Below, in pieces: positions 13,809 through 55,725 of a stretch of DNA of 56,836 nt. The notes beneath the pieces were generated by a model. It had not been told where the DNA came from. It did not search any database and worked only from the letters and a program-made list of their open reading frames with translations. Both the position numbers and the translations under genes were made by a program. Location of the stretch: the IMG/VR virus record IMGVR_UViG_3300037147_000155, positions 1-56,836 of that record; one strand, written 5' to 3'. The DNA is from a virus. Position 1 is the stretch's first letter, and each line of letters opens with the position of its first letter.

Positions 13809-15062
13809 GTGTCAACTTTGGTAGGGGACATTGTGCAGCAATTTAGGGACCTTGCTCAAGACCCCCCGCAGACCCTTGCGGCCCCCGGCATCACTGCGCT
13901 CACCGCCATCTCAACGGTGGGCGGTACCATTCCCCTCGGCACCTACTATCTAGTCTTGACCATCTACAACCAGTGGGGCGAGACAGTTGCATCGAACGAG
14001 CAGTCGGCCACCCTTAGCGGAATCCAAAATTCCATCCAGATCACCTGGACCTCTGCACCCCTTGGTTCCATCGCTGGAGGACTGCGAGCTTATATCGGCC
14101 TCGCAGCGGCAGCCGAGAACTCCTATATACCCTTCTCATTCCCGGCCAGCCAACCGCTACTGCTGACCTCCCCCGGTACGAATGCCGGTGCGCCCCCTGC
14201 GACCTCAACCGCCTACCTGCCCGACACCGATGGCAGCTATGTGAGGGCGAGCCCAGTTTTCAGGTGGCTCAACGATGCCCTGCGCCAGGGGAGTCGTCTA
14301 ATGAATGGCTTCACCGATTACTCAGGCTTCCCCTCGACGATCAACTTTGCGACCTACCTCATCACCGGCGAGTGGACCAAGATGACCCAGGCTTGGTATG
14401 ACGGCTACCCAGTCTCATTCGCGCCCACATCTGGCTTCTTCAAACGCAACACGGTGACCAGCTCAATCCTTGCAGGCTGGTCGATCTCGTTCTACAACAA
14501 CCAACTGGGCGTCGAGGTCTGGCCACAACCCGCTCGCACCGCCACAGTGACCTCACTCGCGCTACCGATGCTGCCCACCGACACCGTGGCCACCCTGACC
14601 TCCACTGGCGGCTTCCTGCTGCCTACCTACGGCATGGTCCAGTTCGGCACCGAAATCTGCGCCTACAACGGCATCAGCGGCAATCAGCTGATTGGCCTGC
14701 TGAGGGGCCTCGGTGGCACTGCGGCCTCTGCGTGGGCCGCATCCACGCCAGCCACCGAACTCAACGCGTTCTTCCAAGGCAAGCGAGTGTTCAACACTCA
14801 GTACACTCCAGGTCAGGCATCCCTCAACCTGCCGATCCCCGCTGGCATGGACGGCATCTTGATCAACTTTCTTATGAGCAAGTTCCTCGAAACTGAACGC
14901 GACTGGCAAGGCGCGAAGGCCAAAATGGACTCCTTCACTGCGCAAATTAAAGACTACATGCGCATGAACCGGCAGATCGCCGGACCCGTTCAGGCAGGGT
15001 CACGCGACTACCAATTTGTCGTTTTCGGGGGGACCCGGTTTGGTGGTACAATTCTGCCATGA
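13809..15062 (+). CDS. head-tail connector/tail tubular-type structural protein
   Basis: A 417-residue product. The N-terminus, TLVGDIVQQFRDLAQDPPQT, resembles the start of connector (adaptor) proteins. Residues 25-110 look like an inserted fibronectin/Ig-like domain (GTYYLVLTIYNQWGETVASN). The rest carries connector-like features (FRWLNDALRQGSRLMNG) and a C-terminal helix region (FLMSKFLETERDWQGAKAKM). Order after capsid and before the nozzle-like protein fits a head completion or tail-tube role. The start is GTG after TTGAGGAGCATCGAGC. Confidence 0.65.
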   Translation: MSTLVGDIVQQFRDLAQDPPQTLAAPGITALTAISTVGGTIPLGTYYLVLTIYNQWGETVASNEQSATLSGIQNSIQITWTSAPLGSIAGGLRAYIGLAAAAENSYIPFSFPASQPLLLTSPGTNAGAPPATSTAYLPDTDGSYVRASPVFRWLNDALRQGSRLMNGFTDYSGFPSTINFATYLITGEWTKMTQAWYDGYPVSFAPTSGFFKRNTVTSSILAGWSISFYNNQLGVEVWPQPARTATVTSLALPMLPTDTVATLTSTGGFLLPTYGMVQFGTEICAYNGISGNQLIGLLRGLGGTAASAWAASTPATELNAFFQGKRVFNTQYTPGQASLNLPIPAGMDGILINFLMSKFLETERDWQGAKAKMDSFTAQIKDYMRMNRQIAGPVQAGSRDYQFVVFGGTRFGGTILP

Positions 15063-15787
15063 AACCTACAATCATTTACGCGCTTGTTGATCCACGAGAT
15101 CAATCTATTCGTTACGTTGGCAAGACAGTAAACAAACGCTGTCGTATGTCTGTGCATCGCTGGGCCGCAGGGAAGGGCTCTAAGCGAATGATGTGGCTCT
15201 TGGACCTCGTGAAGTTAGGGCTCCAGGCAGAGTTCAGGGTGCTAGAAACTGTTGAGGGGGATGCTTGGATCGAACGAGAGCGTTACTGGATCAAATATTA
15301 TCGAGACCTTGGTGCTCCACTCACAAACATTCGAGATGGTGGAGACACTAATCATCCCGACAACGAAGAACTCCGCAAGTGGCGGAGCAAATTCATGACC
15401 GGCCATACCCTCTCAGCAGAGTCACGTCACAAGATCAGTGTGGCTAACTCGGGCAGAGTTCGTTCGGCTGAATGGCGTGAGAAGCTCTCTGCTGGAATGC
15501 GTGGTCGTGTGATGCCGGAGGAACAACGCCAACGCATGATTGGCAGGAAGCAGTCTACTGAAACTGTAGCAAAGAGAGTGGCCCACTATAAGGATCGTGG
15601 ACTGTATAAATCTGAGGAAGCTCACCAACGCGTGATTGCTGGCTCCCGTAAACACTGGACTGGTAGGAAGCGCTCAGATGAGCAGAAGGCTAAGATTCGG
15701 GAGTCACTCAGGCAATATTGGGCTAATCTTACTCCCGAACGTAAAGCTGAGATCGAATCACAAACTCTTCGGAGGCGTTGGGCGTAA
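15059..15787 (+). CDS. GIY-YIG homing endonuclease with NUMOD3 repeats
   Basis: A 242-residue protein. The N-terminal nuclease domain begins IIYALVDPRDQSIRYVGKTV, the GIY and YVG strands, followed by a conserved E-R-E-R-Y-W-I helix (WIERERYWIKYYRDLG). The second half carries several NUMOD3-type DNA-binding repeats (RHKISVANSGRVRSAEWREK; KAKIRESLRQYWANLTPERK). This is the modular design of T4 Seg-type enzymes. It is inserted between two tail genes by overlaps at both ends (ATGA; TAATG), leaving both intact. Codon use is AT-richer than the neighbours. Confidence 0.9.
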   Translation: MKPTIIYALVDPRDQSIRYVGKTVNKRCRMSVHRWAAGKGSKRMMWLLDLVKLGLQAEFRVLETVEGDAWIERERYWIKYYRDLGAPLTNIRDGGDTNHPDNEELRKWRSKFMTGHTLSAESRHKISVANSGRVRSAEWREKLSAGMRGRVMPEEQRQRMIGRKQSTETVAKRVAHYKDRGLYKSEEAHQRVIAGSRKHWTGRKRSDEQKAKIRESLRQYWANLTPERKAEIESQTLRRRWA

Positions 15788-39147: not shown

Positions 39148-39332
39148 TGATTCTGCCCCTGCTGCCAGTTGGTGCCAGCCTCCAGCCTGTGGACCTTAGT
39201 CTGCAGATCGACCACCTGTTGCTGCAACACCTTGATGGCCTGATGCAGCAGCCCATCGCTGTGATTGAGCTGCTCGCAGACCTTGACGAGATCTCGTAGG
39301 GGCTCATTTACTGTTGCGTATCCTTCAGCCAT
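39144..39332 (-). CDS. small coiled-coil protein (62 aa)
   Basis: It begins MAEGYATVNEPLRDLVKVCE and continues with a coiled coil (LHQAIKVLQQQVVDLQTKVH). The short dimerising helix lies directly after the DNA polymerase gene with an 8-base overlap. It may be a polymerase accessory or regulatory peptide. The start is supported only by overlap. Confidence 0.55.
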   Translation of the reverse strand: MAEGYATVNEPLRDLVKVCEQLNHSDGLLHQAIKVLQQQVVDLQTKVHRLEAGTNWQQGQNQ

Positions 39333-40590
39333 TCCACACCTCCATTCCAGTTGGATTTGAATCAGACCTTGGAGCCCAGTTGCCCCCGACTGCGCTCATG
39401 GATATCTCCGCGCCCACGCTCAGGCCACCCAGCTCGGGGATGGGCATGGTGAATATGCGCTGCAGGGTCGCTGCGGCCGCTGCAGCCTCGCTCTGGGGGA
39501 CATAACTCAACAGGTCGTCATGGACCGGCAGAACGCACCAGGAGGCCAGCGGGGTCTGCCACAGAGCCTCGATGTAGACATCCTGGATCGCCGAGGCCGT
39601 GCTCTGAGGCAGGAACGCTATGGCCCTCTTGGCGTCGTCGCCATTGGGCTCCCACCCTTGAGTCCTGCGATTGTAGTTGAACACATGGAAGAATCTGTGC
39701 CGGAAGCCAAAGGGATTCAGCAGGGAGCGATTAGGCGGGCCAGCCATGGTCAGCACCTGCCTCCACCAGCGCACGATGTCTTGGCCGGGCTCGGACGCCA
39801 AGTACACGTTCTGCAGCCTCCGTGCGTGGGCCACCGACTCGAAATCATCGGGGTACTCCTCGAACATCCGCTCGGGGGTGCCGCGATAGTTACTAAGATG
39901 CACAACTCTTTTAGCTGTCTCGCGGCTGGGCTTGTCGTAACGATGCTTGGCTTCTTGGCAGGCTGTCCTCAATGCTGCATCATCGAGGTGAAGATCAATC
40001 GCCTCATTATGGACCACGCTATTAAACCAGTCGTGAACGCCAGCCTTGGCCAGCGCGATGTATCGAGGGGACTGAGCGAAGTAGCCTACTAGGACTGCCT
40101 CGATCGCTGAGCTGTCACAAGCCATGATGACGTGGCCGGGCGGGGCGATGACCATCCTACGAAACTCGTCTGCGAGAGCCGACCTCTTAGGAATATTTTG
40201 GGCGTTTATGTTCCGGCAGGATTTCCTCCACGTACTCGGATGGTGCCCGATCGTGTAGTGGATGCGATTGTTTGCATCCAACTTCCACTTATAGGTCGAG
40301 ATCATCTTCCAGCGTTCCTTGCACGCGAGTACTTTCGCGAAGACGGGATACTTGCGGGCCGCCTTGAGCAGGAACTTTTTTTCTGTTGAGAGCGCGTTCT
40401 CATCATCGCTGTCTTTACGATGAGGGAGTCGCACGTTGAAGTGAGCCGCCAACGATTGAACTTCTAAATAGCTATCGGGATTGAAGTCGCAGACCTTGAC
40501 ATATTTGTTGGGCAAGGGAGGACGTTTGGCGCGAGGCTTCTTCACTGGGGCGCTGTCCAGCTCAGTCAGCAGGGTATCGATGTCAGACAA
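39325..40590 (-). CDS. family A DNA polymerase, polymerase domain only
   Basis: A 421-residue product. Thumb/palm features are YKWKLDANNRIHYTIGHHPS then RNINAQNIPK, motif A MACDSSAIEAVLVGYFA (Asp then E), motif B RETAKRVVHLSNYRGTPERM, and motif C VLPVHDDLLS (catalytic Asp pair). Motif A has ACDSS for the usual DYSQ, and motif B is unusual. There is no 3'-5' exonuclease here; it is in the upstream gene. The start is TTG with an 8-base overlap, so the two subunits may be made together. Confidence 0.85.
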   Translation of the reverse strand: MSDIDTLLTELDSAPVKKPRAKRPPLPNKYVKVCDFNPDSYLEVQSLAAHFNVRLPHRKDSDDENALSTEKKFLLKAARKYPVFAKVLACKERWKMISTYKWKLDANNRIHYTIGHHPSTWRKSCRNINAQNIPKRSALADEFRRMVIAPPGHVIMACDSSAIEAVLVGYFAQSPRYIALAKAGVHDWFNSVVHNEAIDLHLDDAALRTACQEAKHRYDKPSRETAKRVVHLSNYRGTPERMFEEYPDDFESVAHARRLQNVYLASEPGQDIVRWWRQVLTMAGPPNRSLLNPFGFRHRFFHVFNYNRRTQGWEPNGDDAKRAIAFLPQSTASAIQDVYIEALWQTPLASWCVLPVHDDLLSYVPQSEAAAAAATLQRIFTMPIPELGGLSVGAEISMSAVGGNWAPRSDSNPTGMEVWNG

Positions 40591-41938
40591 TCTCAGTCAC
40601 CCCAGTGAGATCCTTAGGAGCGCGCTTCCAGTATTTGCGCTTCTTGATGCTGTCGGGGACTAGTTGTTGAAGGTCAGCGTTCGCAGCTTCCCACTCTTGG
40701 TCCAGGCGATCCATGAATGCAGCCTGATAGACTGGATCCACAAGGAGTCCTCGTTCGCCCATCACTCGCAGCGGTTCATCCATGCGGATGCAGTGGCGTT
40801 CGAAGGCGGCCCAGCGGGATTGGGCAATGAGGGTGTCGCGGGTGCCGCAGTAAACATCCATCGTCACCGCGTTGTCCATGGCGTTGTAGAAGGCGGGTCG
40901 GGCGGCTGACTGGGACTTCCAAGGAGGGCCTGCGTAATAGAAGGGGGCCACTGCGCCAAGGCCCTTGCGGAGGTCGCTCTCCAGGAAGTGCCATGCCCAC
41001 ATTGAGGACACGATGCGCGCAGGGAGGCGCAACCCAGCGTGACGCAAACGCCTACTATCGAAGTTATTATCGGCATGTTCTATCACCTCCTCACTGAGGT
41101 CGAGGGCCTCCTGCAGCAGGCCAATGTAGGGTGGCTGCCAGGGGAAGGTCACCGCGCTGCCCCGCCGCACGCTGAAGCCTGCCCTTACGATGGTCCACGA
41201 TGCCCCCTCCTGTTCGATCTCCTCCTCGTCCAGGCGATCAGACTCTGGAGTCTCAATGTCGACCACGAGAGTAGGGATACGGCCGCCATGTTCACCGTGA
41301 ATGCTTTGGCCGCTTCGTATGTAATCGCGGACGCGATCCGGTGGCGGATCAAGTAAGAGATCATATTTGCTCTCCTGATAAGTACCTTGAGCAATCGAGC
41401 GGGCCCTGTTCAGCGCAAACACCGCCGACGCGTTCAACTTTTGCTGCCCCCGTTGGATGAAGGCTGGATGAAAAGTTGGAACGGCAGGGATTCCGTACGG
41501 CGTTGCCATGACATAACCCGCGTGGGACTCGATGCCCGATACCCCACATATTCGTCGTAGCGCAACGTTGCCCATTGGCACGATGACCTTAGGCTGGGCT
41601 CGCTCGATGAGTCCATCAAGATTAGGCCTACAATGGGTGATCGCGGCTTCGGCATCTCTGAACCTCTCCGGGAAATCCATCCATTTGAGTCGCAGTGGCT
41701 TACACCAGATGGTGTTGGAGGTCATCACATTCGACCTCTCGATGCCAACCAGGCTCAGCATGCGGTTATAGGTGAAGCCAGCGGCCCCGGCGAAGTTGCG
41801 GCCTGCGGCCATTTCCTCCATCCATGGGGAGTCGCCGACCAGCAAAACTCCTGAGTCACCAGAGCCGTCAGGTTCGATAAACCTCTGACCAAGTTCTCTG
41901 TGAGGACACGTTCCACAATGAGGGCCACTTGGAATCAC
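40583..41938 (-). CDS. fusion of family 4 type uracil-DNA glycosylase and 3'-5' exonuclease
   Basis: GTG 41938 overlaps the HNH stop. Residues 5-15 (GPHCGTCPHRE) give Fe-S-type Cys. GVLLVGDSPWMEEMAAGRNF with AGAAG is the UDG motif, then TSNTIWCKPLR, ITHCRPNLDGLI and VIVPMGNVALRRI. The second half is a DnaQ-like exonuclease: TLVVDIETPE (D-x-E), EHADNNFDSRRL, AWHFLESDLRKGL and YCGTRDTLIAQSRW. In all 451 residues. The polymerase domain follows as a separate frame, so this gene plus 39325-40590 equals UDG-Exo-PolA split in two. Confidence 0.8.
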   Translation of the reverse strand: MIPSGPHCGTCPHRELGQRFIEPDGSGDSGVLLVGDSPWMEEMAAGRNFAGAAGFTYNRMLSLVGIERSNVMTSNTIWCKPLRLKWMDFPERFRDAEAAITHCRPNLDGLIERAQPKVIVPMGNVALRRICGVSGIESHAGYVMATPYGIPAVPTFHPAFIQRGQQKLNASAVFALNRARSIAQGTYQESKYDLLLDPPPDRVRDYIRSGQSIHGEHGGRIPTLVVDIETPESDRLDEEEIEQEGASWTIVRAGFSVRRGSAVTFPWQPPYIGLLQEALDLSEEVIEHADNNFDSRRLRHAGLRLPARIVSSMWAWHFLESDLRKGLGAVAPFYYAGPPWKSQSAARPAFYNAMDNAVTMDVYCGTRDTLIAQSRWAAFERHCIRMDEPLRVMGERGLLVDPVYQAAFMDRLDQEWEAANADLQQLVPDSIKKRKYWKRAPKDLTGVTEIV

Positions 41939-42384
41939 TTGAGGCCCCCATGAGGGCAGTACCCATAGAATCCCAGAGACATATTGCAGTTGTGGCACAA
42001 CACACGAAATCCTCCCCGCTTTTCACGAAGCAGCCGTCCAACATATCCAGCTCCACTAGCTACAGACTTTCTATGTTGCTTTCCCCCACCATTAACGTGA
42101 TCGATAGCCATGAACTCAAAAGTGGCCTCACCACAGCAGGCGCACTTGCCGCCATACATCTCGATCATCTTTTTTCGATTAGACTGCCGCAATTTAGACA
42201 GCTTGCTAAGGTGAGCAACGTACTTAATAGGGTCATTGCGGATAGATAGGTAATACTGGCTCTTTTTAGCCTTACCCGCAACGCTACGACTCCATTTTAG
42301 CTTGTGAGCGTTCAATCGGAAGTGATTCTCTCGATAGTACTTCTTCGACCATGCACGCCTCTTCTCTGGAGTGTTATGGGGCAT
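41935..42384 (-). CDS. HNH homing endonuclease upstream of UDG-Exo
   Basis: A 149-residue protein, a paralogue of the HNH gene at 11719-12243. The basic N-terminus (KRRAWSKKYYRENHFRLNAH) is followed by KCACCGEATFEFMAIDHVNG and LCHNCNMSLGFYGYCPHGG. Its ATG shares a base with the stop of the +1-shifted tail of the upstream gene (TAATG), and its stop overlaps the start of UDG-Exo (GTGA). The insertion is thus exactly seated between two replication genes. Confidence 0.9.
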   Translation of the reverse strand: MPHNTPEKRRAWSKKYYRENHFRLNAHKLKWSRSVAGKAKKSQYYLSIRNDPIKYVAHLSKLSKLRQSNRKKMIEMYGGKCACCGEATFEFMAIDHVNGGGKQHRKSVASGAGYVGRLLREKRGGFRVLCHNCNMSLGFYGYCPHGGLK

Positions 42385-43533: not shown

Positions 43534-43770
43534 CTAGTTGAGTTCCGAACTTTGCGGTGGGGACTGTTCGTGAGGCGCTTTCTGCCTCCTGACATCCCCA
43601 TACATGGCCAAACTCCCTTCCTCCCCTGCATCCTCGGGCAGCATCCCATGGACAACCGCTCCGATCTCGGTGCCCATCCGCGTGGCCACCTGCTCCTTGG
43701 ACTCCCCCTCCACCGTGGCTGTGATCTCGACGTAGAGGTGAACGAGGAAGCGATGGAGGATAGCCGTCAC
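43534..43770 (-). CDS. hypothetical protein (78 aa)
   Basis: It begins MTAILHRFLVHLYVEITATV. A beta-helix-beta beginning (HLYVEITATVEGESKEQVAT then RMGTEIGAVV) is followed by an acidic, unstructured tail (EDAGEEG...QSSELN). The 4-base overlap with the phosphatase gene shows co-translation. No family is recognised. Confidence 0.55.
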   Translation of the reverse strand: MTAILHRFLVHLYVEITATVEGESKEQVATRMGTEIGAVVHGMLPEDAGEEGSLAMYGDVRRQKAPHEQSPPQSSELN

Positions 43771-44252
43771 TTGGACTCCTCACTGGCGAAGCCAGTCCAG
43801 GTACGGTTCAGGCCAAAATTCAGCCAGTCGCGATATCCAAATCGCAGCGCCTCATCCATGGCGGCCTCCTTGGACCAGTCACAGCTGACCACGCGGTAGG
43901 CGGCTACCACGAGCCCTGTGCGATCCTGACCGTGCTGACAGTGGACCAGCGCTGGCTTGGGAGCCTGAGCGATCGTCTCCAGGATCACTTCGAGCGCGCC
44001 CTGGGTGATGCCGATGGCATAAATCTGCCATGCTGAGATCGGCCTGGAGATGACGCCGGTTGGCTCCAGCTCAACCGCCTCCCGCTCGTCCTCGGCGAGG
44101 CCCTCTAAGCTGATCACTGACCTAAATTGTGCTCGGATGGCCGCGAATGCTGCCTCACCGGCTGGCCTGGCGCTACGCCATAGGTCATCGGTTACGCGGG
44201 TGAATGGAGTCGGAGCTGCCAAAGGACCCTCCACCTGAGGGACTTGGACCAT
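43767..44252 (-). CDS. dual-specificity/tyrosine-type protein phosphatase
   Basis: The start at 44252 is fixed by AAGGAGACATAAA directly upstream; the longer frame has no site. The 161-residue product has DDLWRSARPAGEAAFAAIRA (the usual 'vyRs.qP' entry of DSP-like proteins), SVISLEGLAEDE and the signature VHCQHGQDRTGLVV (Cys105, Arg111 of C-x5-R). The general acid would be an Asp/Glu near 70-75. In a phage it may act on host phospho-proteins, nucleotides or phosphoinositols. Confidence 0.8.
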   Translation of the reverse strand: MVQVPQVEGPLAAPTPFTRVTDDLWRSARPAGEAAFAAIRAQFRSVISLEGLAEDEREAVELEPTGVISRPISAWQIYAIGITQGALEVILETIAQAPKPALVHCQHGQDRTGLVVAAYRVVSCDWSKEAAMDEALRFGYRDWLNFGLNRTWTGFASEESK

Positions 44253-44253
44253 T

Positions 44254-44622
44254 TTATGTCTCCTTGGGAGCCGCTCTCCATTTCCCCGGTTTCGCAGGTT
44301 CAATTCCTGATTTCAGGATGTAATGACAAGCGGCGCATGTAATCCAACCTTCGTCCTTCATCGACACTTCAAATGAGGTACCCTCGCCACATCGGGGACA
44401 GGGATATGAACAACTGTTAATGACCAAAAACTGACGGAACGTAAGCTGATTCGTAGGAGTGGGCGCTATGTTCCCGCCTGCCATCGCCCACCACTCCGCG
44501 AATTCAACAAACAGATGGATGTTGGAATAGGTTCGCCAATCCCTGCCAGTTTCCTCGCAAAACGACTGCCATTGTCCCTGCTCGCTTACGTCCTCTGGCT
44601 TGCTCGCTCGCTCATCGGTCAT
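44254..44622 (-). CDS. zinc-ribbon protein (122 aa)
   Basis: The start at 44622 follows AAGGAGCCATTCG. The N-terminal half is helical (QWQSFCEETGRDWRTYSNIH; FVEFAEWWAMAGG). The second half carries YPCPRCGEGTSFEVSMKDEG and TCAACHYILK, a classical C-x2-C...C-x2-C zinc ribbon. It overlaps the upstream lipoprotein gene by 4 bases (ATGA) and lies two bases before the phosphatase. The role is unknown; a nucleic-acid-binding or protein-docking factor. Confidence 0.65.
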   Translation of the reverse strand: MTDERASKPEDVSEQGQWQSFCEETGRDWRTYSNIHLFVEFAEWWAMAGGNIAPTPTNQLTFRQFLVINSCSYPCPRCGEGTSFEVSMKDEGWITCAACHYILKSGIEPAKPGKWRAAPKET

Positions 44623-45032
44623 CGAATGGCTCCTTGGCTGAGGGCGAGGCAATGAAATTTGCCATCAGCGGCTGGCAGCATAAAGTAGACTGATTTTGGC
44701 TCGGGGCACTCCATATGATGAACCTTCACTGGCCCCTTGGAATTGTCAGGACATCCGCCCTCTGGGTACATTTCGCACAATCCTCCCCTCATTATGGCCG
44801 GACAGCATGACATCACGGTCTCATCCCATTCCTTCGGAGCCATATCGAAGGGCGGCATGGACGCATGATCGAGCTGCACTCGATTCACGTGTCCTGTTAC
44901 GGGCTTGGGCAACTCTACGCATCCACTGTCAGTTAGCAGACAGGAATATGTGCCGCTGTCCTGCGCTTCCACCTTCGTCAAGTGGCCGCAGCCGCACAGC
45001 GTAAGCAAGAGAATGGTGGCTAGGGGCCTCAT
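44619..45032 (-). CDS. lipoprotein
   Basis: The start at 45032 follows GAGGTGACC, and the frame upstream of it lacks a site. MRPLATILLLTLCGCGHL is a lipoprotein signal with lipobox LTLC/LCGC. The mature 120 residues contain about eight further Cys (SCLLTDSGC; MSCCPAIMRGGLCEMYPEGG), so disulfide bonds in the periplasm are likely. An early phage lipoprotein may block superinfection at the outer membrane (as known for some phage lipoproteins) or bind metal. No family is recognised. Confidence 0.7.
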   Translation of the reverse strand: MRPLATILLLTLCGCGHLTKVEAQDSGTYSCLLTDSGCVELPKPVTGHVNRVQLDHASMPPFDMAPKEWDETVMSCCPAIMRGGLCEMYPEGGCPDNSKGPVKVHHMECPEPKSVYFMLPAADGKFHCLALSQGAIR

Positions 45033-45570: not shown

Positions 45571-46182
45571 CTACACTCCATTACTGCTAGGCAATTTGAA
45601 GGAGATTATCCGCTCCTTTCCATAAGCTGAGTCTCCAGATTCAGGAAAGGTCACAGTTTGTGTGTAGCGGCCATCGGCTCCCTTTGGCCATGCGATATCC
45701 ACCTTGCCATTCTTGCGAGCCTTCTTTCGTGGATTGGTCGAGGCAGTTTCTCCGGTGTCTCGTGAAAAGGCCTCCCATCCGATCACCGCCTCCCCCCTGG
45801 CCCTGCCATCAGCGGCCTGCAGCGCTGCCACGATGGATCGATTGTTGGCTGCGTCCGCCTTGATGCCCAGGCAGCGAAGTAACTCTGCCCCGTCGCTGTT
45901 GGCCATCTTGGGGTGCTTATAGAAGGAGGCTCGCAGAAATTTCACCCTCACCCCCTCGGGCTTCTCTGCGGTGGCTATCTCGGCTTCGAAGGTGACGTTA
46001 AGGTATGGCCTCCCTTCGACCACCATCTTATCGAACGGCTCCGCTGCGAGGTGGAAGATGAATGGATGCCTGCCTGGATATACCTGCGGCGGAAAGCTCC
46101 CCGACTCTGGGGCGTCGTAATTTATCTCAACCTCGGGCTCCGCGTCCAGGGTGGACAACAATGTCTCTAGATCGTCAGCCAC
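45571..46182 (-). CDS. probable single-stranded DNA-binding (OB-type) protein
   Basis: A 203-residue product, GTG start after AAGGAGGTGAAATA. The N-terminus is acidic (DDLETLLSTLDAEPEVEINY). It is then beta-rich: YPGRHPFIFHLAAEPFDKMV, YLNVTFEAEIA, GVRVKFLRASFYKHPKMANS then ELLRCLGI, a helix and strands again, ending RIISFKLPSSNGV. This resembles phage proteins of the replication block annotated as ssDNA-binding. No acidic C-terminal tip is present, unlike the frame at 42384. The neighbours support a DNA replication or recombination role. Confidence 0.6.
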   Translation of the reverse strand: MADDLETLLSTLDAEPEVEINYDAPESGSFPPQVYPGRHPFIFHLAAEPFDKMVVEGRPYLNVTFEAEIATAEKPEGVRVKFLRASFYKHPKMANSDGAELLRCLGIKADAANNRSIVAALQAADGRARGEAVIGWEAFSRDTGETASTNPRKKARKNGKVDIAWPKGADGRYTQTVTFPESGDSAYGKERIISFKLPSSNGV

Positions 46183-46400
46183 TATTTCACCTCCTTCTGA
46201 AAGTATGGATTATTGGCCATGGCCTTCTTGGCGAAGAACGATGCCTCCTCCAGCTTGGTGCGGACCAGCGACATCTCCCTGCTGGGGCTGGGATTGATGG
46301 CTACGATCTCATCCAGCAAGGTACTGAAGACAGTCGCCAGCTGTTGAGCCTTCTTGATCCCCTCATCGTTGAGCAAATGGACCTGAAACTCTGCGTTCAT
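46182..46400 (-). CDS. Acb2/Tad1-hairpin-like protein, candidate anti-CBASS sponge
   Basis: A 72-residue helical protein. HLLNDEGIKKAQQLATVFST makes the first helix, and REMSLVRTKLEEASFFAKKA then MANNP the second. The 'R-E-x-S-x-x-x-T-K-L-E-E-A-x-x-x-A-x-x-A' pattern is what I recognise from the Acb2/Tad1 hairpin family, whose known members bind cyclic nucleotides and block CBASS or Thoeris signalling. The start has GGAGGTCGCATA and overlaps the previous stop (TAATG). The function is inferred from the motif. Confidence 0.65.
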   Translation of the reverse strand: MNAEFQVHLLNDEGIKKAQQLATVFSTLLDEIVAINPSPSREMSLVRTKLEEASFFAKKAMANNPYFQKEVK

Positions 46401-46615
46401 TATGCGACCTCCTGTGTCTGAGTCGCAGGCGTGAATGTAGATGCAGGCTTAGTGCTGCGCTGCGCTTTGACTCTCTTGGCAACGGACTTACTGGGGGTGT
46501 AGAACCGCTCCCTGACCACATCCTGCACCAGCTGATAGACTGCCTTCACCTCTCCTGAATCGCCTGACCTGAAGAACTCCAGTATCGCTCCAGCCCTACT
46601 TCGCCGTCGTGGCAC
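46400..46615 (-). CDS. small basic protein (71 aa)
   Basis: It begins at GTG after GGAGGCAATCA, overlapping the ATPase end by 20 bases. MPRRRSRAGAILEFFRSGDS, then a helical part (VYQLVQDVVRERFYTPSKSV) and a basic Thr/Ala-rich C-terminus. Nucleic acid contact is plausible. It lies between the P-loop ATPase and the Acb2-like gene. No family is recognised. Confidence 0.6.
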   Translation of the reverse strand: MPRRRSRAGAILEFFRSGDSGEVKAVYQLVQDVVRERFYTPSKSVAKRVKAQRSTKPASTFTPATQTQEVA

Positions 46616-47531
46616 TGATTGCCTCCTTTGGGGCCGCGGCCCCCTTCATTGATTCGAGTAAATCATACAGTTTTCCTAAGTCAGGTGGGTCCATATATGG
46701 CTGTCCACCCATGGCCTTGCTAAACTCCCCCGCCTTGTCGAATGGTACTCTGACCTTGGCTGGGAATGGAATCTTAGCGATGACATCCGCGTGTGGTTGA
46801 ATATACATCACCCTACGCTGGAGATGATTAATCTGCTTAGTAGCGGGGTCTGCTACCTCAGTCACCAACATTTCTAAGTGGATCATATTGCCGAACCACT
46901 GACCTGCCTTGCCGGTAGACTTCTTGCCTACGATCGATGGGCCATAGGTGGGCGATTTCGTCCCCTCCTCCTCGCCGCGGCCCTCCAGGGCGGTCCAGAT
47001 CACTCGCTCGACTGGCAGCATGGACGACTTCACAACGAAATCGTAGATGCGATTTTGGATCTCGCCATAGTAGCTCATGTTGGTGCCGGAGAATTCTGTC
47101 TTCCCGTCAACGTAGGTATATGCCGGATCCTGACTCAAGCGCTTCTTGGTGTGGCTTAGGTGCCGCATCATGATATCCCCGAACGAGGTTAGGCCCTCGA
47201 ACACATATAGGCCGATGTCTTGACCACCTGCGGACGGAGCGCCTGGCGACACCAAGAATCCCTTATCGTCGGGCCAATACCCCTGTGCTACCTTATCGAG
47301 TGTCTCAATGGGGTATGGGTCATTCGCCACCACGAACGGTATCACGATCCCCTCATCGACCAGGCTGCCCATGGTATCGAATCCACCGGTGTCGCCTGCC
47401 ACGAGGCGGGTCCGCTTGCCGAACTTGTCCCACATCCTTCGGGCCGCGATGGCGCATTGATGAGTTTTACCGCAACCCGTGTTTCCGTATAGGGCGTCGG
47501 CCACAAACCTTGCTCTGGGCTGAAGGGTCAT
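46596..47531 (-). CDS. P-loop ATPase, Sak4/AAA_24-like recombination candidate
   Basis: The start at 47531 follows AAGGGAGGACAGCCG. The 311-residue product has Walker A LYGNTGCGKTHQCAIAARR (near residues 15-33) and a RecA-like order: TRLVAGDTGGFDTMGSLVDE, then a DIGLYVFEGLTSFGDIMMRH Walker-B region, and RVIWTALEGRGEEEGTKSPT further on. This matches phage nucleotide-binding proteins of the AAA_24 or Sak4 type, single-strand annealing-related factors. Neighbouring SSB-like and nuclease genes support recombination or replication. Confidence 0.7.
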   Translation of the reverse strand: MTLQPRARFVADALYGNTGCGKTHQCAIAARRMWDKFGKRTRLVAGDTGGFDTMGSLVDEGIVIPFVVANDPYPIETLDKVAQGYWPDDKGFLVSPGAPSAGGQDIGLYVFEGLTSFGDIMMRHLSHTKKRLSQDPAYTYVDGKTEFSGTNMSYYGEIQNRIYDFVVKSSMLPVERVIWTALEGRGEEEGTKSPTYGPSIVGKKSTGKAGQWFGNMIHLEMLVTEVADPATKQINHLQRRVMYIQPHADVIAKIPFPAKVRVPFDKAGEFSKAMGGQPYMDPPDLGKLYDLLESMKGAAAPKEAISATTAK

Positions 47532-47572
47532 CGGCTGTCCTCCCTTGCTGACCGCTTTGTGGTCAGGGTCAT
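47528..47572 (-). CDS. 14-codon bridging ORF between two genes
   Basis: MTLTTKRSAREDSR begins at an ATG sharing a base with the upstream stop (TAATG) and ends at a TGA overlapping the ATG of the ATPase gene (ATGA). It fills the 40-base gap exactly, which favours translational coupling across it. No separate function is implied. Confidence 0.4.
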   Translation of the reverse strand: MTLTTKRSAREDSR

Positions 47573-48054
47573 TAATCACGCTCCTTATCGGAGCCCAACA
47601 CTGCGCGGACATTCTTAGTGAACACATGCGTCTTCAGAGGCCTACCTGTGCCGCGATCCCTAACTCTGCCGCCTGGCCTGCCTGATGCGATCTTCTGACA
47701 CGCAGACGGATGCTTCAACGTATACCTGCCAGGCTCAAAAGTGGCCCCGCGATCGAACGACACCACTTCCCTGCTCAAGTGCTCGGGGACCATGAGCCTG
47801 GTGGCAACATTCCCCTTGATGAGGTATGCGGTCGAGGTGGCAATGATGACTCCATCGAGGTGCATGGCTCGTTTGCAGGCCACCGCCATGGCGCACCCCG
47901 CGTGCTTCTTGCGCTCGCTCGTGCTCACGTCCCTGCGAGTGACCTCAACCACCGCATCCTCGCTGGCATCCTCTACACTCTCCACGTTGGGAAAATACAT
48001 CCTCACGCGAGTCAATGCATTGGTGGTACCGACCTTCCTTGCTCTGCTGCTCAT
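47572..48054 (-). CDS. hypothetical basic protein (160 aa)
   Basis: GAGGAGGGTAGC precedes the ATG. It has a basic N-terminus (SSRARKVGTTNALTRVRMYF), an alpha/beta centre (AMAVACKRAMHLDGVIIATS; STAYLIKGNVATRLMVPEHL) and a basic end with GRPGGRVRDRGTGR. The 'KKHAGCAMAVACKRA' helix and its following strands suggest an RNase H-like or resolvase-type small fold, but no catalytic set is visible. Neighbours: HTH protein upstream, ATPase downstream. Confidence 0.6.
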   Translation of the reverse strand: MSSRARKVGTTNALTRVRMYFPNVESVEDASEDAVVEVTRRDVSTSERKKHAGCAMAVACKRAMHLDGVIIATSTAYLIKGNVATRLMVPEHLSREVVSFDRGATFEPGRYTLKHPSACQKIASGRPGGRVRDRGTGRPLKTHVFTKNVRAVLGSDKERD

Positions 48055-51669: not shown

Positions 51670-52002
51670 TCAAACTCTGCTCTCGCGCTCCCTCTCCCAC
51701 TCCGCACGGGCTCGCGCCAGCTCGGATTCGACAATAGGTATAATCTTGTCCGCATAATCAAAGCATGTACATTCATAGCCTTGAGCTATTACCCTCTCCC
51801 AATTTCCGTAATCGCTACCACATAATCCGCCTTGGTGCAATTCCTTCGCCAACAGCTCCCGCAGCCCGCTCCCCGCCTCTGAGGGCGCAGATTCGCGCCC
51901 TGGTTGACCAGCTACCTTCCCACAGCTGAGCCACTCCCCCTTCCCTTCAGTCTCTGGGATAGGGGAGTAGCAGGCCTTGGTGTGCTTATGCGTCTCAGAC
52001 AC
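51670..52002 (-). CDS. hypothetical protein (110 aa), end of the Ubl operon
   Basis: GTG start after AAGGAGGCCAATC, overlapping the upstream gene. The N-terminus MSETHKHTKACYSPIPETEG is followed by a helical region (GLRELLAKELHQGGLCGSDY), then NWERVIAQGYECTCFDYADK and a charged helix to the end. Several Cys. It may be related to the small phage protein upstream in function. No family is recognised. Confidence 0.6.
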   Translation of the reverse strand: MSETHKHTKACYSPIPETEGKGEWLSCGKVAGQPGRESAPSEAGSGLRELLAKELHQGGLCGSDYGNWERVIAQGYECTCFDYADKIIPIVESELARARAEWERERESRV

Positions 52003-52282
52003 GATTGGCCTCCTTCGACCTGGCGAAAATCGCTGCCTTCTCCACGATCTCCTCCATGAGGAGCATGCAAATGGAGCACTCCATCGCGGATGGCTCAGCG
52101 TCGTGGCGGTTGCGGTGGAGGACGAGGTGGGCGCTTAGGTCATATTGTTTCGCTAGGCGATCGCGTAGGCGCTCGGCGTCGAAGCGGTCCAGGTTATGGC
52201 CCACACAGCACCATGCCGCTGGAGTGTTGGCTACCGGGTCCGCGGGCTCCCAGATAATCACTGCTGCGATTGGTTCGAGCAT
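51995..52282 (-). CDS. hypothetical protein (95 aa) in the Ubl operon
   Basis: The start overlaps the JAB stop (TGATG) and has AAGGAGGCAGCTG. MLEPIAAVIIWEPADPVANT opens a strand, and residues 25-60 form helices (DRFDAERLRDRLAKQYDLSA). A C-x2-C pair lies near the end (MECSICMLLME). A small domain following the JAB protease may be accessory to the conjugation system, but no known family is seen. Confidence 0.6.
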   Translation of the reverse strand: MLEPIAAVIIWEPADPVANTPAAWCCVGHNLDRFDAERLRDRLAKQYDLSAHLVLHRNRHDAEPSAMECSICMLLMEEIVEKAAIFARSKEANRV

Positions 52283-53184
52283 CAGCTGCCTCCTTTACCG
52301 GTGTGATAGCCATTGTAGCTATCAAATGACATACTGTCATAGATGGCATCGACGGCCGCGGCGTGATCGCTGCCCGCTGCCTCGCCATAGCCTGCCAGGT
52401 TGGCCGCTGGCTTGATGGCCTCCTTGAGTTGGTCGCGATAGGTGTCGGCCGCCCTGATGCCCACTAGGATAACCTTGCCATCAGCCCGGCTGAATCGTCC
52501 ACACTCCAGCTTGATGCGCATGCGACACTTTGACTCTCCCTTCGCATTGATCACGATCTCAATGGGCCAGTTGGCATGGGCCTCGTCGGTCGCAGACCAA
52601 AACGCGCCCATCTGGACGTGACTGTGGATGGCGGCGATCGTGCCCGGCCTGACACGGAACTGGTCGTCTGGCATCTCTACGTGAGCGCCAGAGGCTGATT
52701 GAGGTGGAAAGTACATCTCGCGTATCGCCGCCCGGCCAGTGGACTGATTGAGGTCTCCGATGAGATATGCCATCCATTCGGTGTCAAACTCATCTGCGAG
52801 TTCAGTGCAGGCTCGGTACATATCAAGTGGCATCTCCACTTGTGGCTCGGCGGCGATGGGGCAGCCCTTGACGTCGGCCACCGGGCAGGTCCAGTCAGTG
52901 TCAGGCGGCCGCGTGGCTATGGGAACGATGACTGTAGTGGAATGGTCGCTTCCACTACGGCTGCCCATCCTGTCGCCGAACCTCTGCTGACCATTGCGCT
53001 GCCAGTCCCTGTGGGATGCGACTGACTGGCTGCCCTGGCTGCCCTCTGTGATATAGTTGGCGTTATGTGCAGCGACTGCATTAGATATGTCCTCGATCCC
53101 TGGCGCTGGCCTCTCGTCGACCAGGATCCAGTTATCGCCTGCCAGGATCTCCTTTATTTTGCGCTCACTACGTTTGCGTCCCAT
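52282..53184 (-). CDS. JAB/MPN (JAMM) metalloprotease
   Basis: The start at 53184 follows AAGGGAGGACTTAGCC. The 300-residue product has an N-terminal 120-residue region, then a JAB domain: Glu136 in EWMAYLIGDL, then AAIHSHVQMGAFWSATDEAH, where His187, His189, Ser197 and Asp200 complete E...H-x-H-x7-S-x2-D exactly. This binds zinc and hydrolyses isopeptide or peptide bonds after a Ubl C-terminal Gly in known families. It follows the E1 gene by 49 bases and belongs to the Ubl cassette. Confidence 0.85.
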   Translation of the reverse strand: MGRKRSERKIKEILAGDNWILVDERPAPGIEDISNAVAAHNANYITEGSQGSQSVASHRDWQRNGQQRFGDRMGSRSGSDHSTTVIVPIATRPPDTDWTCPVADVKGCPIAAEPQVEMPLDMYRACTELADEFDTEWMAYLIGDLNQSTGRAAIREMYFPPQSASGAHVEMPDDQFRVRPGTIAAIHSHVQMGAFWSATDEAHANWPIEIVINAKGESKCRMRIKLECGRFSRADGKVILVGIRAADTYRDQLKEAIKPAANLAGYGEAAGSDHAAAVDAIYDSMSFDSYNGYHTGKGGS

Positions 53185-53233
53185 GGCTAAGTCCTCCCTT
53201 GGGGGCAAAGTACGCCCCCTGTTGCGATTGCTG

Positions 53234-53878
53234 CTAAACGGCCACATATTGATTCACTCGCAGACCAGAGTCAGACCAGTCGACGCGAAAGGTGTCTCGG
53301 ACTGGTAAGCCTAGTAGAATGTAGTAGATAGCAATGGATGCAGCCATTGTGCATGGCCCAACGTGGACCGGCACGCTCGCATACCCTGGCTCATTCTCGG
53401 CCTCGGTCGACCATTCGGCTGGACTGCCGGTGACGGTCAGACCGTGACCATCTGCGCCTAGCTCAACGTAGCGTCCATGATAGTGCCCTCCTGCCCTCCC
53501 TACGGCCTCGTAGACCATCCTACGGCTACGCAGCGAGTCAGTTGACACGATTACCCTATTGGCTGACCTGATGGCTTCAGAATGCCACTCAGGGTCAAAA
53601 TGGCCATGCGCGTTTATGGTGACATCGGGCCTGGCACGTCTGATCAACCCAGCCAGCGCGATTGACTTCGGCAGTCCGATGGCTGCTGAGTCAAAGGGTA
53701 GGCGATTCAGGTTATGCCCCTCGATCAGATCACCGTCAAAGAGTTCCAGCTGGCGGACACCGGCCAGGCCAAGGAAATATCCGCACCAACTTCCGATGCC
53801 GCCGCAGCCCACTACCAGCACGGTCTGGTCCTGGATAATGCCCAACGACTCTTGCCTGCTATACGTGTTGTCAGTCAT
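53234..53878 (-). CDS. ThiF/E1-like adenylyltransferase
   Basis: A 214-residue product with AGGAGGACGAA before the ATG. Residues 19-40 have VLVVGCGGIGSWCGYFLGLA, the nucleotide-binding G-x-G-G-x-G. LFDGDLIEGHNLNRLPF is the D-x-D...N-x-N-R core, PKSIALAGLI gives the conserved Lys, and VIVSTDSLRSRRMVYEA the conserved Asp/Arg region. Cys176 in VGPCTMAA is a possible thioester site. E1-type enzymes adenylate the C-terminal Gly of a Ubl. Its overlap with the upstream gene shows co-translation. Confidence 0.85.
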   Translation of the reverse strand: MTDNTYSRQESLGIIQDQTVLVVGCGGIGSWCGYFLGLAGVRQLELFDGDLIEGHNLNRLPFDSAAIGLPKSIALAGLIRRARPDVTINAHGHFDPEWHSEAIRSANRVIVSTDSLRSRRMVYEAVGRAGGHYHGRYVELGADGHGLTVTGSPAEWSTEAENEPGYASVPVHVGPCTMAASIAIYYILLGLPVRDTFRVDWSDSGLRVNQYVAV

Positions 53879-54123
53879 TTCGTCCTCCTGCGACCCTTAA
53901 CCCTCTTGGCCCGCTTGATTCGCTTATGGGTACCTGGCTTACTCAGCTTCTCCAAGGTGTTGGCTCTGCGCCGGCCCATCATCTCCAAGATATCCAGGAA
54001 TCTCTGCGCCAGCTCATATAGGTCCCTAGTCTGCTGCCTGTCAGCAGCATCTGCTGCCATGAGTATGTCAGGATCATCGATGTCATGCATACCCCACGTA
54101 TATCTATCCTCACTATCCATCAT
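53875..54123 (-). CDS. small protein of the Ubl operon with a very basic tail
   Basis: GGGAGGACT precedes tandem ATGs (54123 and 54120). It begins MMDSEDRYTWGMHDIDDPDI, acidic, then a helix (QQTRDLYELAQRFLDILEMM) and a C-terminus of Lys and Arg (THKRIKRAKRVKGRRRTK). It could bind nucleic acid or membrane or serve as a Ubl acceptor (many Lys). This is inference from position and composition. Confidence 0.6.
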   Translation of the reverse strand: MMDSEDRYTWGMHDIDDPDILMAADAADRQQTRDLYELAQRFLDILEMMGRRRANTLEKLSKPGTHKRIKRAKRVKGRRRTK

Positions 54124-54146
54124 AGTCCTCCCTTTGGGCAGCCTGA

Positions 54147-55388
54147 CTACCTGCCCCAGATAACGCCTGCGGCCTCCCTGGCCACCTCTCGTGCCCCAAA
54201 CTCGAATGCATTAGTGGCATCCATGCCCTCGTCCCGCCAATGGTCATACCAATCCCTTACTCCCTGTGGACAACTCACCTTGACCTCTGGCGACCAGTCG
54301 CTCATGGACACGAGTAGGCTACTCAGGTTGACCTCCTTGTAGGCGCGATTGATGCAGGCGACCACCCTGGTCAGGCTAGCCTGGTCAACAATCGCCGCAG
54401 GCAATCCCTGTGGCTGACAGCAGATCGATCCATGGTCCGCATGGGGCAACTTTGGACTCCATTCGGCTATCTTGGACTGATTGAGTTCAAACGCCCCCGT
54501 GGATGGCATAAACGTAATCCAGATCCAGGGATAGATTGGCTCAGCTTGCTCAGCGCTCCATTCGATCTCACAGACTCTATTGCGAACCATTTCGTCGTCA
54601 GGGGTAGGATCTTCAAAGCCATTAGCCCGCTCCCAAACCTCCCACCCAGGATAGCTGAATCGCGTCGGCTGATAGCTGAGGCGCTGCAGGACCTCAATGG
54701 CTCCATCGATTGACCTCGACTGCCTAATGGCGACTCCCTGTCCATTGAGCCACCCCGGCACAGCGAATACATTACGCGTGGCCAACCTGGCTGCCTCGGC
54801 TGCTATCTGCTGCTCCCTGCGGAACGCAGCCCGCTCAGCCTCCACTTGCTGCCTGACTATCCTCGCCTGCGTGGTCGCGGCCGCAATCATGGCATCTCTC
54901 TCCCTGCGTATGGCCTCGGCTGCCTTCCTGCGCAGATTGACCAGCAGCTTGCCACCCGTGGCGGAAGGCTCGCCACTGGACATCAGCCTGAACGTGCGGC
55001 CGCCAATGGTTAGATATCCTGGCTCGGCGGCAGTTAGCCGACTGATGACCTCCTCGTCTGACTCCAATGTGGCCACCGCGCCATTGTCATCCTGCCCTAC
55101 CAACTCCGCTGCTATCTCACTCACATAGCTACGGATAGCGTCAGCCAGGATAGCCGGCGACAGCGATGGCATACCAGCGTCATAGTTGGCCCCTAGATAA
55201 TTAGCCAGCGACCTCGCCCGCTGGCGATTGATGCTCATATACCCACGGTGCGGCCCAGGCAGATAGCCACGGAAGGCGACCATTTTGGTATTCCCTACCT
55301 GCTCAGTGACATCCCTATCGCCAATGGTTACATGGAGCTGTAGCGCCCGTGTGCCCTGCGGTGATAACTCTACCCTTATCTCGTCCAT
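54147..55388 (-). CDS. coiled-coil protein with E2-like C-terminal domain
   Basis: The start at 55388 follows AGGGAGGACATCG. The 413-residue product has an N-terminal alpha/beta part. A charged coiled coil lies near residues 140-190 (RRKAAEAIRRERDAMIAAAT; RQQVEAERAAFRREQQIAAE). A C-terminal domain follows whose strands (IYPWIWITFMPSTGAF) precede LPHADHGSICCQPQGLPAAI. The form P-H-x-D-H-G-x-I-C(C) is the active-site loop pattern of ubiquitin E2/RWD-like proteins, Cys323/324. Together with E1, JAB and Ubl genes this supports an E2-like role, not yet known from experiment. Confidence 0.65.
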   Translation of the reverse strand: MDEIRVELSPQGTRALQLHVTIGDRDVTEQVGNTKMVAFRGYLPGPHRGYMSINRQRARSLANYLGANYDAGMPSLSPAILADAIRSYVSEIAAELVGQDDNGAVATLESDEEVISRLTAAEPGYLTIGGRTFRLMSSGEPSATGGKLLVNLRRKAAEAIRRERDAMIAAATTQARIVRQQVEAERAAFRREQQIAAEAARLATRNVFAVPGWLNGQGVAIRQSRSIDGAIEVLQRLSYQPTRFSYPGWEVWERANGFEDPTPDDEMVRNRVCEIEWSAEQAEPIYPWIWITFMPSTGAFELNQSKIAEWSPKLPHADHGSICCQPQGLPAAIVDQASLTRVVACINRAYKEVNLSSLLVSMSDWSPEVKVSCPQGVRDWYDHWRDEGMDATNAFEFGAREVAREAAGVIWGR

Positions 55389-55400
55389 CGATGTCCTCCC

Positions 55401-55447
55401 TGGGATAGTGAGCATCCCACTGAGGGGACAATATAAAATTATCCCCT
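55401..55447 (-). other. two hairpins between the Ubl and E2-like genes
   Basis: AGGGGACAAT (55423-55432) pairs with ATTATCCCCT (55438-55447), 10 bp with one G-U and a 5-base loop. TGGGAT (55401-55406) pairs with ATCCCA (55414-55419). Such tandem hairpins may allow different levels of the Ubl and E2 mRNAs by processing or attenuation. Confidence 0.5.
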
Positions 55448-55470
55448 CTAGCGAAGCTCTCTAACCGTGC

Positions 55471-55725
55471 TTAGCCTCGCGCATCCTTGGCCACCAACTC
55501 AACCACTGTGGCCCTCAGAGCCGCCAGCGTCTGACTGCCTGCGCTGACCTCCGCCTTCGATCCATTGACCAGCACATTGAAGGTCCGTAGGCCATGATTG
55601 GCCGAATACTCCTTGGCCACGTCGGCCAGGGTGTCCTCGCCATCCGCCGACCCGACAGTTTCTCCATTAACTTTAATCGTTACTGATGGATAGCCGCCAT
55701 TCCCTGCTTCCCATACGTCTGTCAT
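55471..55725 (-). CDS. ubiquitin-like (beta-grasp) candidate ending in Gly
   Basis: An 84-residue protein after GGGGAGGACTAGCT. SVTIKVNGETVGSADGEDTL, then a helix ADVAKEYSANHGLRT, then strand FNVLVNGSKAEV and a last helix or strand. Strand-turn-strand, helix, strand is the beta-grasp order, and the tight 'KVNG' and 'LVNG' turns are typical. The C-terminus is KDARG with no residues after Gly, ready for adenylation. Paired with E1, E2-like and JAB genes it is very probably a Ubl, though fold prediction is needed. Confidence 0.65.
   Translation of the reverse strand: MTDVWEAGNGGYPSVTIKVNGETVGSADGEDTLADVAKEYSANHGLRTFNVLVNGSKAEVSAGSQTLAALRATVVELVAKDARG

Follow-up and report, generated by a model that had tools for sequence, protein, structure and literature searches.

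A Stand-Alone Acb2-Type Hairpin Protein as a Candidate Cyclic-Oligonucleotide Sponge in an Uncultivated Phage

Described hairpin sponges and the gene under study

Acb2 of Pseudomonas phages binds cyclic di- and trinucleotides. For the P. aeruginosa phage protein (p26; structures 8h2j and 8h2x), we take R67, Y11, and K26 to be the key residues, and R67 is presumably the CTN-pocket arginine, which matters for trinucleotides. In T4 Acb2 (Vs.4; 7uq2), F82 stacks on the dinucleotide, as stated in a passage of PMC12657218, and binding is reduced by the replacement T68M, according to a legend in PMC12657230. The P. aeruginosa protein, with Ala at the position of F82, binds 3'3'-cGAMP, and loops of the beta-domain of Tad1 form much of the gcADPR pocket (both from passages of PMC12043709).

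In the window, which is the whole analysed stretch of 56,836 nucleotides of virus record IMGVR_UViG_3300037147_000155, a protein of 72 aa is encoded at 46182-46400 on the minus strand. A Pfam match, a profile match to 9ptq, a structure model, and matches in BFVD point to an Acb2/Tad1 hairpin (PF24729) protein and candidate cyclic-oligonucleotide sponge. By analogy with described proteins, we consider it likely to be a stand-alone Acb2-type hairpin and, as such, a candidate sponge for the cyclic oligonucleotides of CBASS.

The open reading frame begins with ATG, with AGGAGG located 7 bases 5' of it; its start shares bases with the upstream stop (TAATG), its stop shares bases with the downstream start (TAGTG), and its third-position GC is 0.77. 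When an HMM was built from 14 relatives with the window protein left out, the protein obtained 106.6 bits, none of 1000 shuffles of it was listed at E<=100, and of the window's 1139 six-frame pieces, the 72-aa frame was the only one listed at the same threshold. Of 105 clade pairs, 20 were usable for dN/dS, with a median of 0.32 and a maximum of 0.62, the other pairs being saturated or undefined. That the frame is a chance ORF or a decayed gene is almost inconceivable: its small size is the sole point in favour, conservation across the clade refutes this reading, and the AGGAGG with the overlaps, the HMM and shuffle test, and dN/dS are also contrary to it. The motif from which the original prediction had started, R41-E-x-S44-x3-T48-K-L-E-E-A53-x3-A57-x2-A60, is present letter for letter, and its occurrence purely by chance is ruled out by the HMM test against shuffles and six-frame pieces.

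Family membership, fold, and relatives

The match to Pfam PF24729 (Acb2/Tad1 hairpin), which had been set beforehand as a test of the prediction, covers residues 10-62 with 33.3 bits against a gathering cut-off of 27. It was also found in the whole-record search, and all 15 members of the clade match the family at E<=0.01. The protein also matches PHROG 1454, a family with function unknown (3.6e-6). By sequence, 9ptq ("Acb2 homolog 43") is the one solved structure that is matched, with a single-sequence E of 1.3e-6, which improves to 1.2e-14 with a 15-sequence profile (A1), where T4 Vs.4 appears at 0.1. The alignment with 9ptq extends over residues 5-64, nearly full length, and shares GRE...TKLEEA.FFA.KA.A, whereas the identity is moderate; a paper on 9ptq and its ligand was not found in the literature search. 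NCBIfam gave only a chance-level match, and PADLOC made no call for the protein. Judged from the Pfam match over the cut-off, the 9ptq match, and the hhalign result with hairpin-only Acb2-type proteins given below, the protein is a member of the Acb2/Tad1 family, and the family assignment first proposed holds. PF24729 is a broad family that includes uncharacterised hairpins, and belonging to it does not by itself establish that a protein acts as a sponge. This breadth is illustrated by a different PF24729 hairpin beside the terminase (L046, 1963-2514) in the record of a sister phage (L039; G021). We know of no function for that terminase-side hairpin.

The translation has 72 residues and the AlphaFold2 model is a helical hairpin (helices 12-35 and 41-62; pLDDT 88.5), in agreement with the two-helix protein that had been expected; the mean pLDDT of residues 1-10 is only 59. 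The antiparallel two-helix hairpin of PF24729 is seen both in the model and in its BFVD matches, of which the best 10 of 214 are all named Acb2/Tad1 hairpin (top probability 1.00, TM 0.77), and "Acb2/Tad1 hairpin domain-containing protein" is the name of 13 among the best 19. Foldseek with the model against PDB gave no E below 0.001; Vs.4 was ranked third with E 2.0, and 9ptq was absent among the matches listed (best 50 of 73). In VIA, Vs.4 was ranked second (Z 6.8, rmsd 3.2, 63 aligned), tied with unrelated hairpins such as 4dci (Z 6.8), and Acb2 8h2x was ranked fourth (Z 6.3) and 8h2j had Z 6.2, unrelated hairpins scoring alike. Because the PDB Foldseek matches are not significant and unrelated hairpins equal Acb2 in VIA, the modelled structure is consistent with an Acb2 hairpin and not decisive.

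Relatives were found in 20 uncultivated viral contigs, 17 loci from a viral-contig scan and 3 from a profile scan, and the Pfam cut-off is exceeded in all 20 records behind these loci. In A1, identity to the window protein is 48-59%, and the 15 sequences share 21 invariant positions, ten of them polar or charged: F5, H8, L10, N11, G14, A18, F25, R41, T48, K49, L50, E51, E52, A53, S54, F55, F56, A57, K58, K59, and A62. No match at 80% coverage was obtained in 50,697 phage records (best partial matches, E 0.2-0.9), a profile scan of cellular genome contigs gave 15 pattern matches and no confirmed relative, and a plasmid search gave one weak match only (Deinococcus, E 0.3). The clade has so far been seen only in uncultivated phages, and no tested protein belonging to it was found in the literature search. 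In one relative (L009, 4464-5201, plus strand), a 246-aa open frame carries the hairpin domain in its C-terminal part and matches PHROG 38666 (E 7e-18) in its N-terminal part, so that either a fusion or an internal start is present.

Operon, neighbourhood, and a probable ubiquitin-like cassette

The four genes of the surrounding operon described here are on the minus strand, in the order of Sak4-like gene, 71-aa ORF, 72-aa hairpin gene, and 203-aa gene; HNH, UDG, and PolA genes come next. The Sak4-like ATPase / ssDNA annealing protein (46596-47627) matches PHROG 124 with E 8e-9, its AAA_24 match being below the cut-off; the 71-aa ORF (46400-46615) overlaps the start of the hairpin gene; and the 203-aa gene (45571-46182) lies directly downstream and comes after Sak4 in the sister phage L039. 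The 203-aa protein had no family match, and a scan with it gave no viral relative; it may have an SSB-like role. The PolA-type polymerase adjoins a 471-aa uracil-DNA-glycosylase-superfamily protein (39325-41998, minus strand). The earlier description of the hairpin gene as lying between replication genes is about right, since the Sak4-like gene is upstream and the 203-aa, HNH, UDG, and PolA genes are downstream, and the gene would be expressed early.

This arrangement also gives room to a different reading, in which a protein with the PF24729 fold binds no nucleotide and acts in the replication module, for example by pairing, as a small helical protein, with the Sak4-like or the 203-aa protein. 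The hairpin gene does lie inside a translationally overlapping operon with these two genes, many neighbours of its relatives in other phages are replication genes, and uncharacterised PF24729 members exist elsewhere. In L039, however, whose proteins have 45% (Sak4), 35% (203-aa protein), and 47% (UDG) identity to those of the window, the Sak4 gene adjoins the 203-aa gene, with neither the 71-aa ORF nor the hairpin gene in between, and this module therefore occurs there without the 72-aa gene. A PF24729 search of the sister records gave a match in that of L039 and none in that of L040; because the former is the terminase-side hairpin, the absence in L039 refers to the position between Sak4 and the 203-aa gene. 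The hairpin gene and the 71-aa ORF are an exchangeable accessory set located after Sak4 and before the next replication gene.

When 26 window proteins were compared by tblastn with the 20 relative loci (about 5 kb on each side), only the hairpin protein matched, except for terL in L013. The gene has no fixed partners, since the 25 other window proteins are unmatched near the relatives save for that terL. In a neighbour survey with 97 of 134 neighbouring ORFs at 17 loci, the PHROG matches in the 25 families listed of 101 include DNA primase/helicase (3), DnaB-like helicase (2), exonuclease (2), and UvsX, RecE, Sak4, and gp2.5-like SSB (one each), with head and metabolic families also among the neighbours. 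Because the surroundings are not shared and replication families are found among the neighbours, the hairpin gene moves between phages, often in replication modules. Its travel without fixed partners, its absence from the Sak4-203 module of L039, and invariant polar residues that fit the sponge motif all speak against a replication role, and we regard that role as unlikely.

Several further features of the window and of other phages were noticed. In Bacillus phages L031 and L032, Tad1-type genes are located directly upstream of the RecA gene, comparable to the hairpin gene near Sak4. A tyrosine/dual-specificity phosphatase-like protein (43767-44303, minus strand) is above two Pfam cut-offs; restriction alleviation protein Lar is matched weakly at 44254-44652 (minus strand; 17.9 bits, short of the 28.6 cut-off); and a homing-endonuclease-like gene is located within the structural module (15059-15787, plus strand). 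The host could not be assigned from the major capsid protein (MCP), which has at most 25.8% identity (8 records), or from terL, with at most 27.1% identity among the matches listed (best 15 of 1861), and no tRNA genes were found.

A probable phage ubiquitin-like conjugation cassette of five genes is located at 51995-55725 on the minus strand. It comprises an 84-aa Ubl with a beta-grasp fold and a C-terminal glycine (55471-55725; model pLDDT 84.6), for which the top PDB matches are nearly all to structures of ubiquitin, NEDD8, SUMO, or ISG15; a possible E2-like protein of 422 aa with a conserved HAD...CC stretch (54147-55415); an E1 (ThiF; 53234-53878, 74.6 bits); a JAB protein over the cut-off with a conserved and intact HxHx7SxxD (52282-53247); and a 95-aa ORF. 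All five genes are carried by the sister phage L040 with 40-64% identity, and the cassette resembles operon type 6d as described in a part of Iyer et al. 2006 (PMC1779556). One may imagine that the phage hits type II CBASS twice, the sponge taking the nucleotides and the cassette competing with or reversing the Cap2/Cap3 conjugation by which the CD-NTase is primed. We hold this to be very improbable. ThiF is over the threshold in none of the 20 records with relatives of the hairpin protein, which may be fragments, so that no link between hairpin and cassette is seen.

Predicted ligands and comparison with known sponges

In hhalign, A1 is closest to a set of six hairpin-only actinophage/Paenibacillus-phage proteins (98.5%, E 4e-15), followed by five T4-type Acb2 proteins (69%, E 4e-5) and four Tad1-type proteins (3.4%, E 0.013). 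This profile comparison groups the 72-aa protein with hairpin-only Acb2-type proteins. Xandras gp101, JSwag gp50, and PBL1c are likewise hairpin only and have an RE...TKLEEA-like block, and F-x-x-H is shared by 5 of the 6 members of the set; identity to the set is 22-31%, and the end reads WANAAIA there vs FFAKKAMA here. A passage of PMC11953737 calls Xandras gene 101 a CBASS antagonist.

Tad1 (7uav/8smd, 8kbc) resembles the protein in its C-terminal hairpin, which falls into the same Pfam family, and differs by its own N-terminal beta-domain, for which there is no counterpart in the all-helical, two-helix model. Membership in Tad1 is ruled out by the missing beta-domain and the hhalign value of 3.4%. 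The first proposal had allowed for binding of CBASS or Thoeris signals: its family part stands, and the Thoeris half is weaker because that beta-domain, the source of much of the gcADPR pocket, is absent. A sponge for another signal, either Thoeris cyclic ADP-ribose signals or a not-yet-named ligand, would be in keeping with the hairpin that Tad1 has in common by family name and with the alignment, across the SRE block, of Tad1 chains to the phage Zuko hairpin protein. Similarity to Tad1 is nevertheless the weakest of the three, and the domain described for the gcADPR pocket in part of PMC12043709 is missing from the model; we consider such a signal quite unlikely.

The Acb2-type reading leads to a prediction of ligands. 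Compared with P. aeruginosa Acb2, the protein is modelled with a like hairpin fold, R41 (invariant in 15 of 15 sequences) aligns with R67, and Ala62 corresponds to the Ala at the T4 F82 position; the Pseudomonas protein differs in its 93-residue chain, its longer inter-helix stretch, and Tyr11 vs His8 of the clade (weakly aligned). T4 Vs.4 has a similar second helix, TKLKEASMWACRAV, and its T68 aligns with T48, while it has 88 aa and has D and F82 in place of R41 and A62; T4 Tyr8 corresponds to His8 only via a weakly anchored N-terminal alignment. Because R41 and A62 align with R67 and Ala of Pseudomonas Acb2, our best guess from the alignments is a Pseudomonas-like dual sponge for cyclic dinucleotides and trinucleotides. 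By analogy with Acb2, the protein would assemble as a hexamer and would hold host cyclic oligonucleotides with no degradation, and CBASS-type effectors, perhaps including cA3-using ones, would stay inactive during infection.

Acb2 has already been annotated by similarity in phage genomes, as seen in passages of PMC13348362 and PMC11953737, and viral proteins in UniProt already carry the Acb2/Tad1 hairpin name. What is gained here is a coherent clade of Acb2-type candidate sponges in 20 uncultivated viral contigs with no high-coverage phage record, whose 21 invariant residues, kept by phages with almost nothing else in common near the gene, are direct targets for binding tests. Otherwise, a counter-defence strategy that is already known would be found again in a new lineage of phages.
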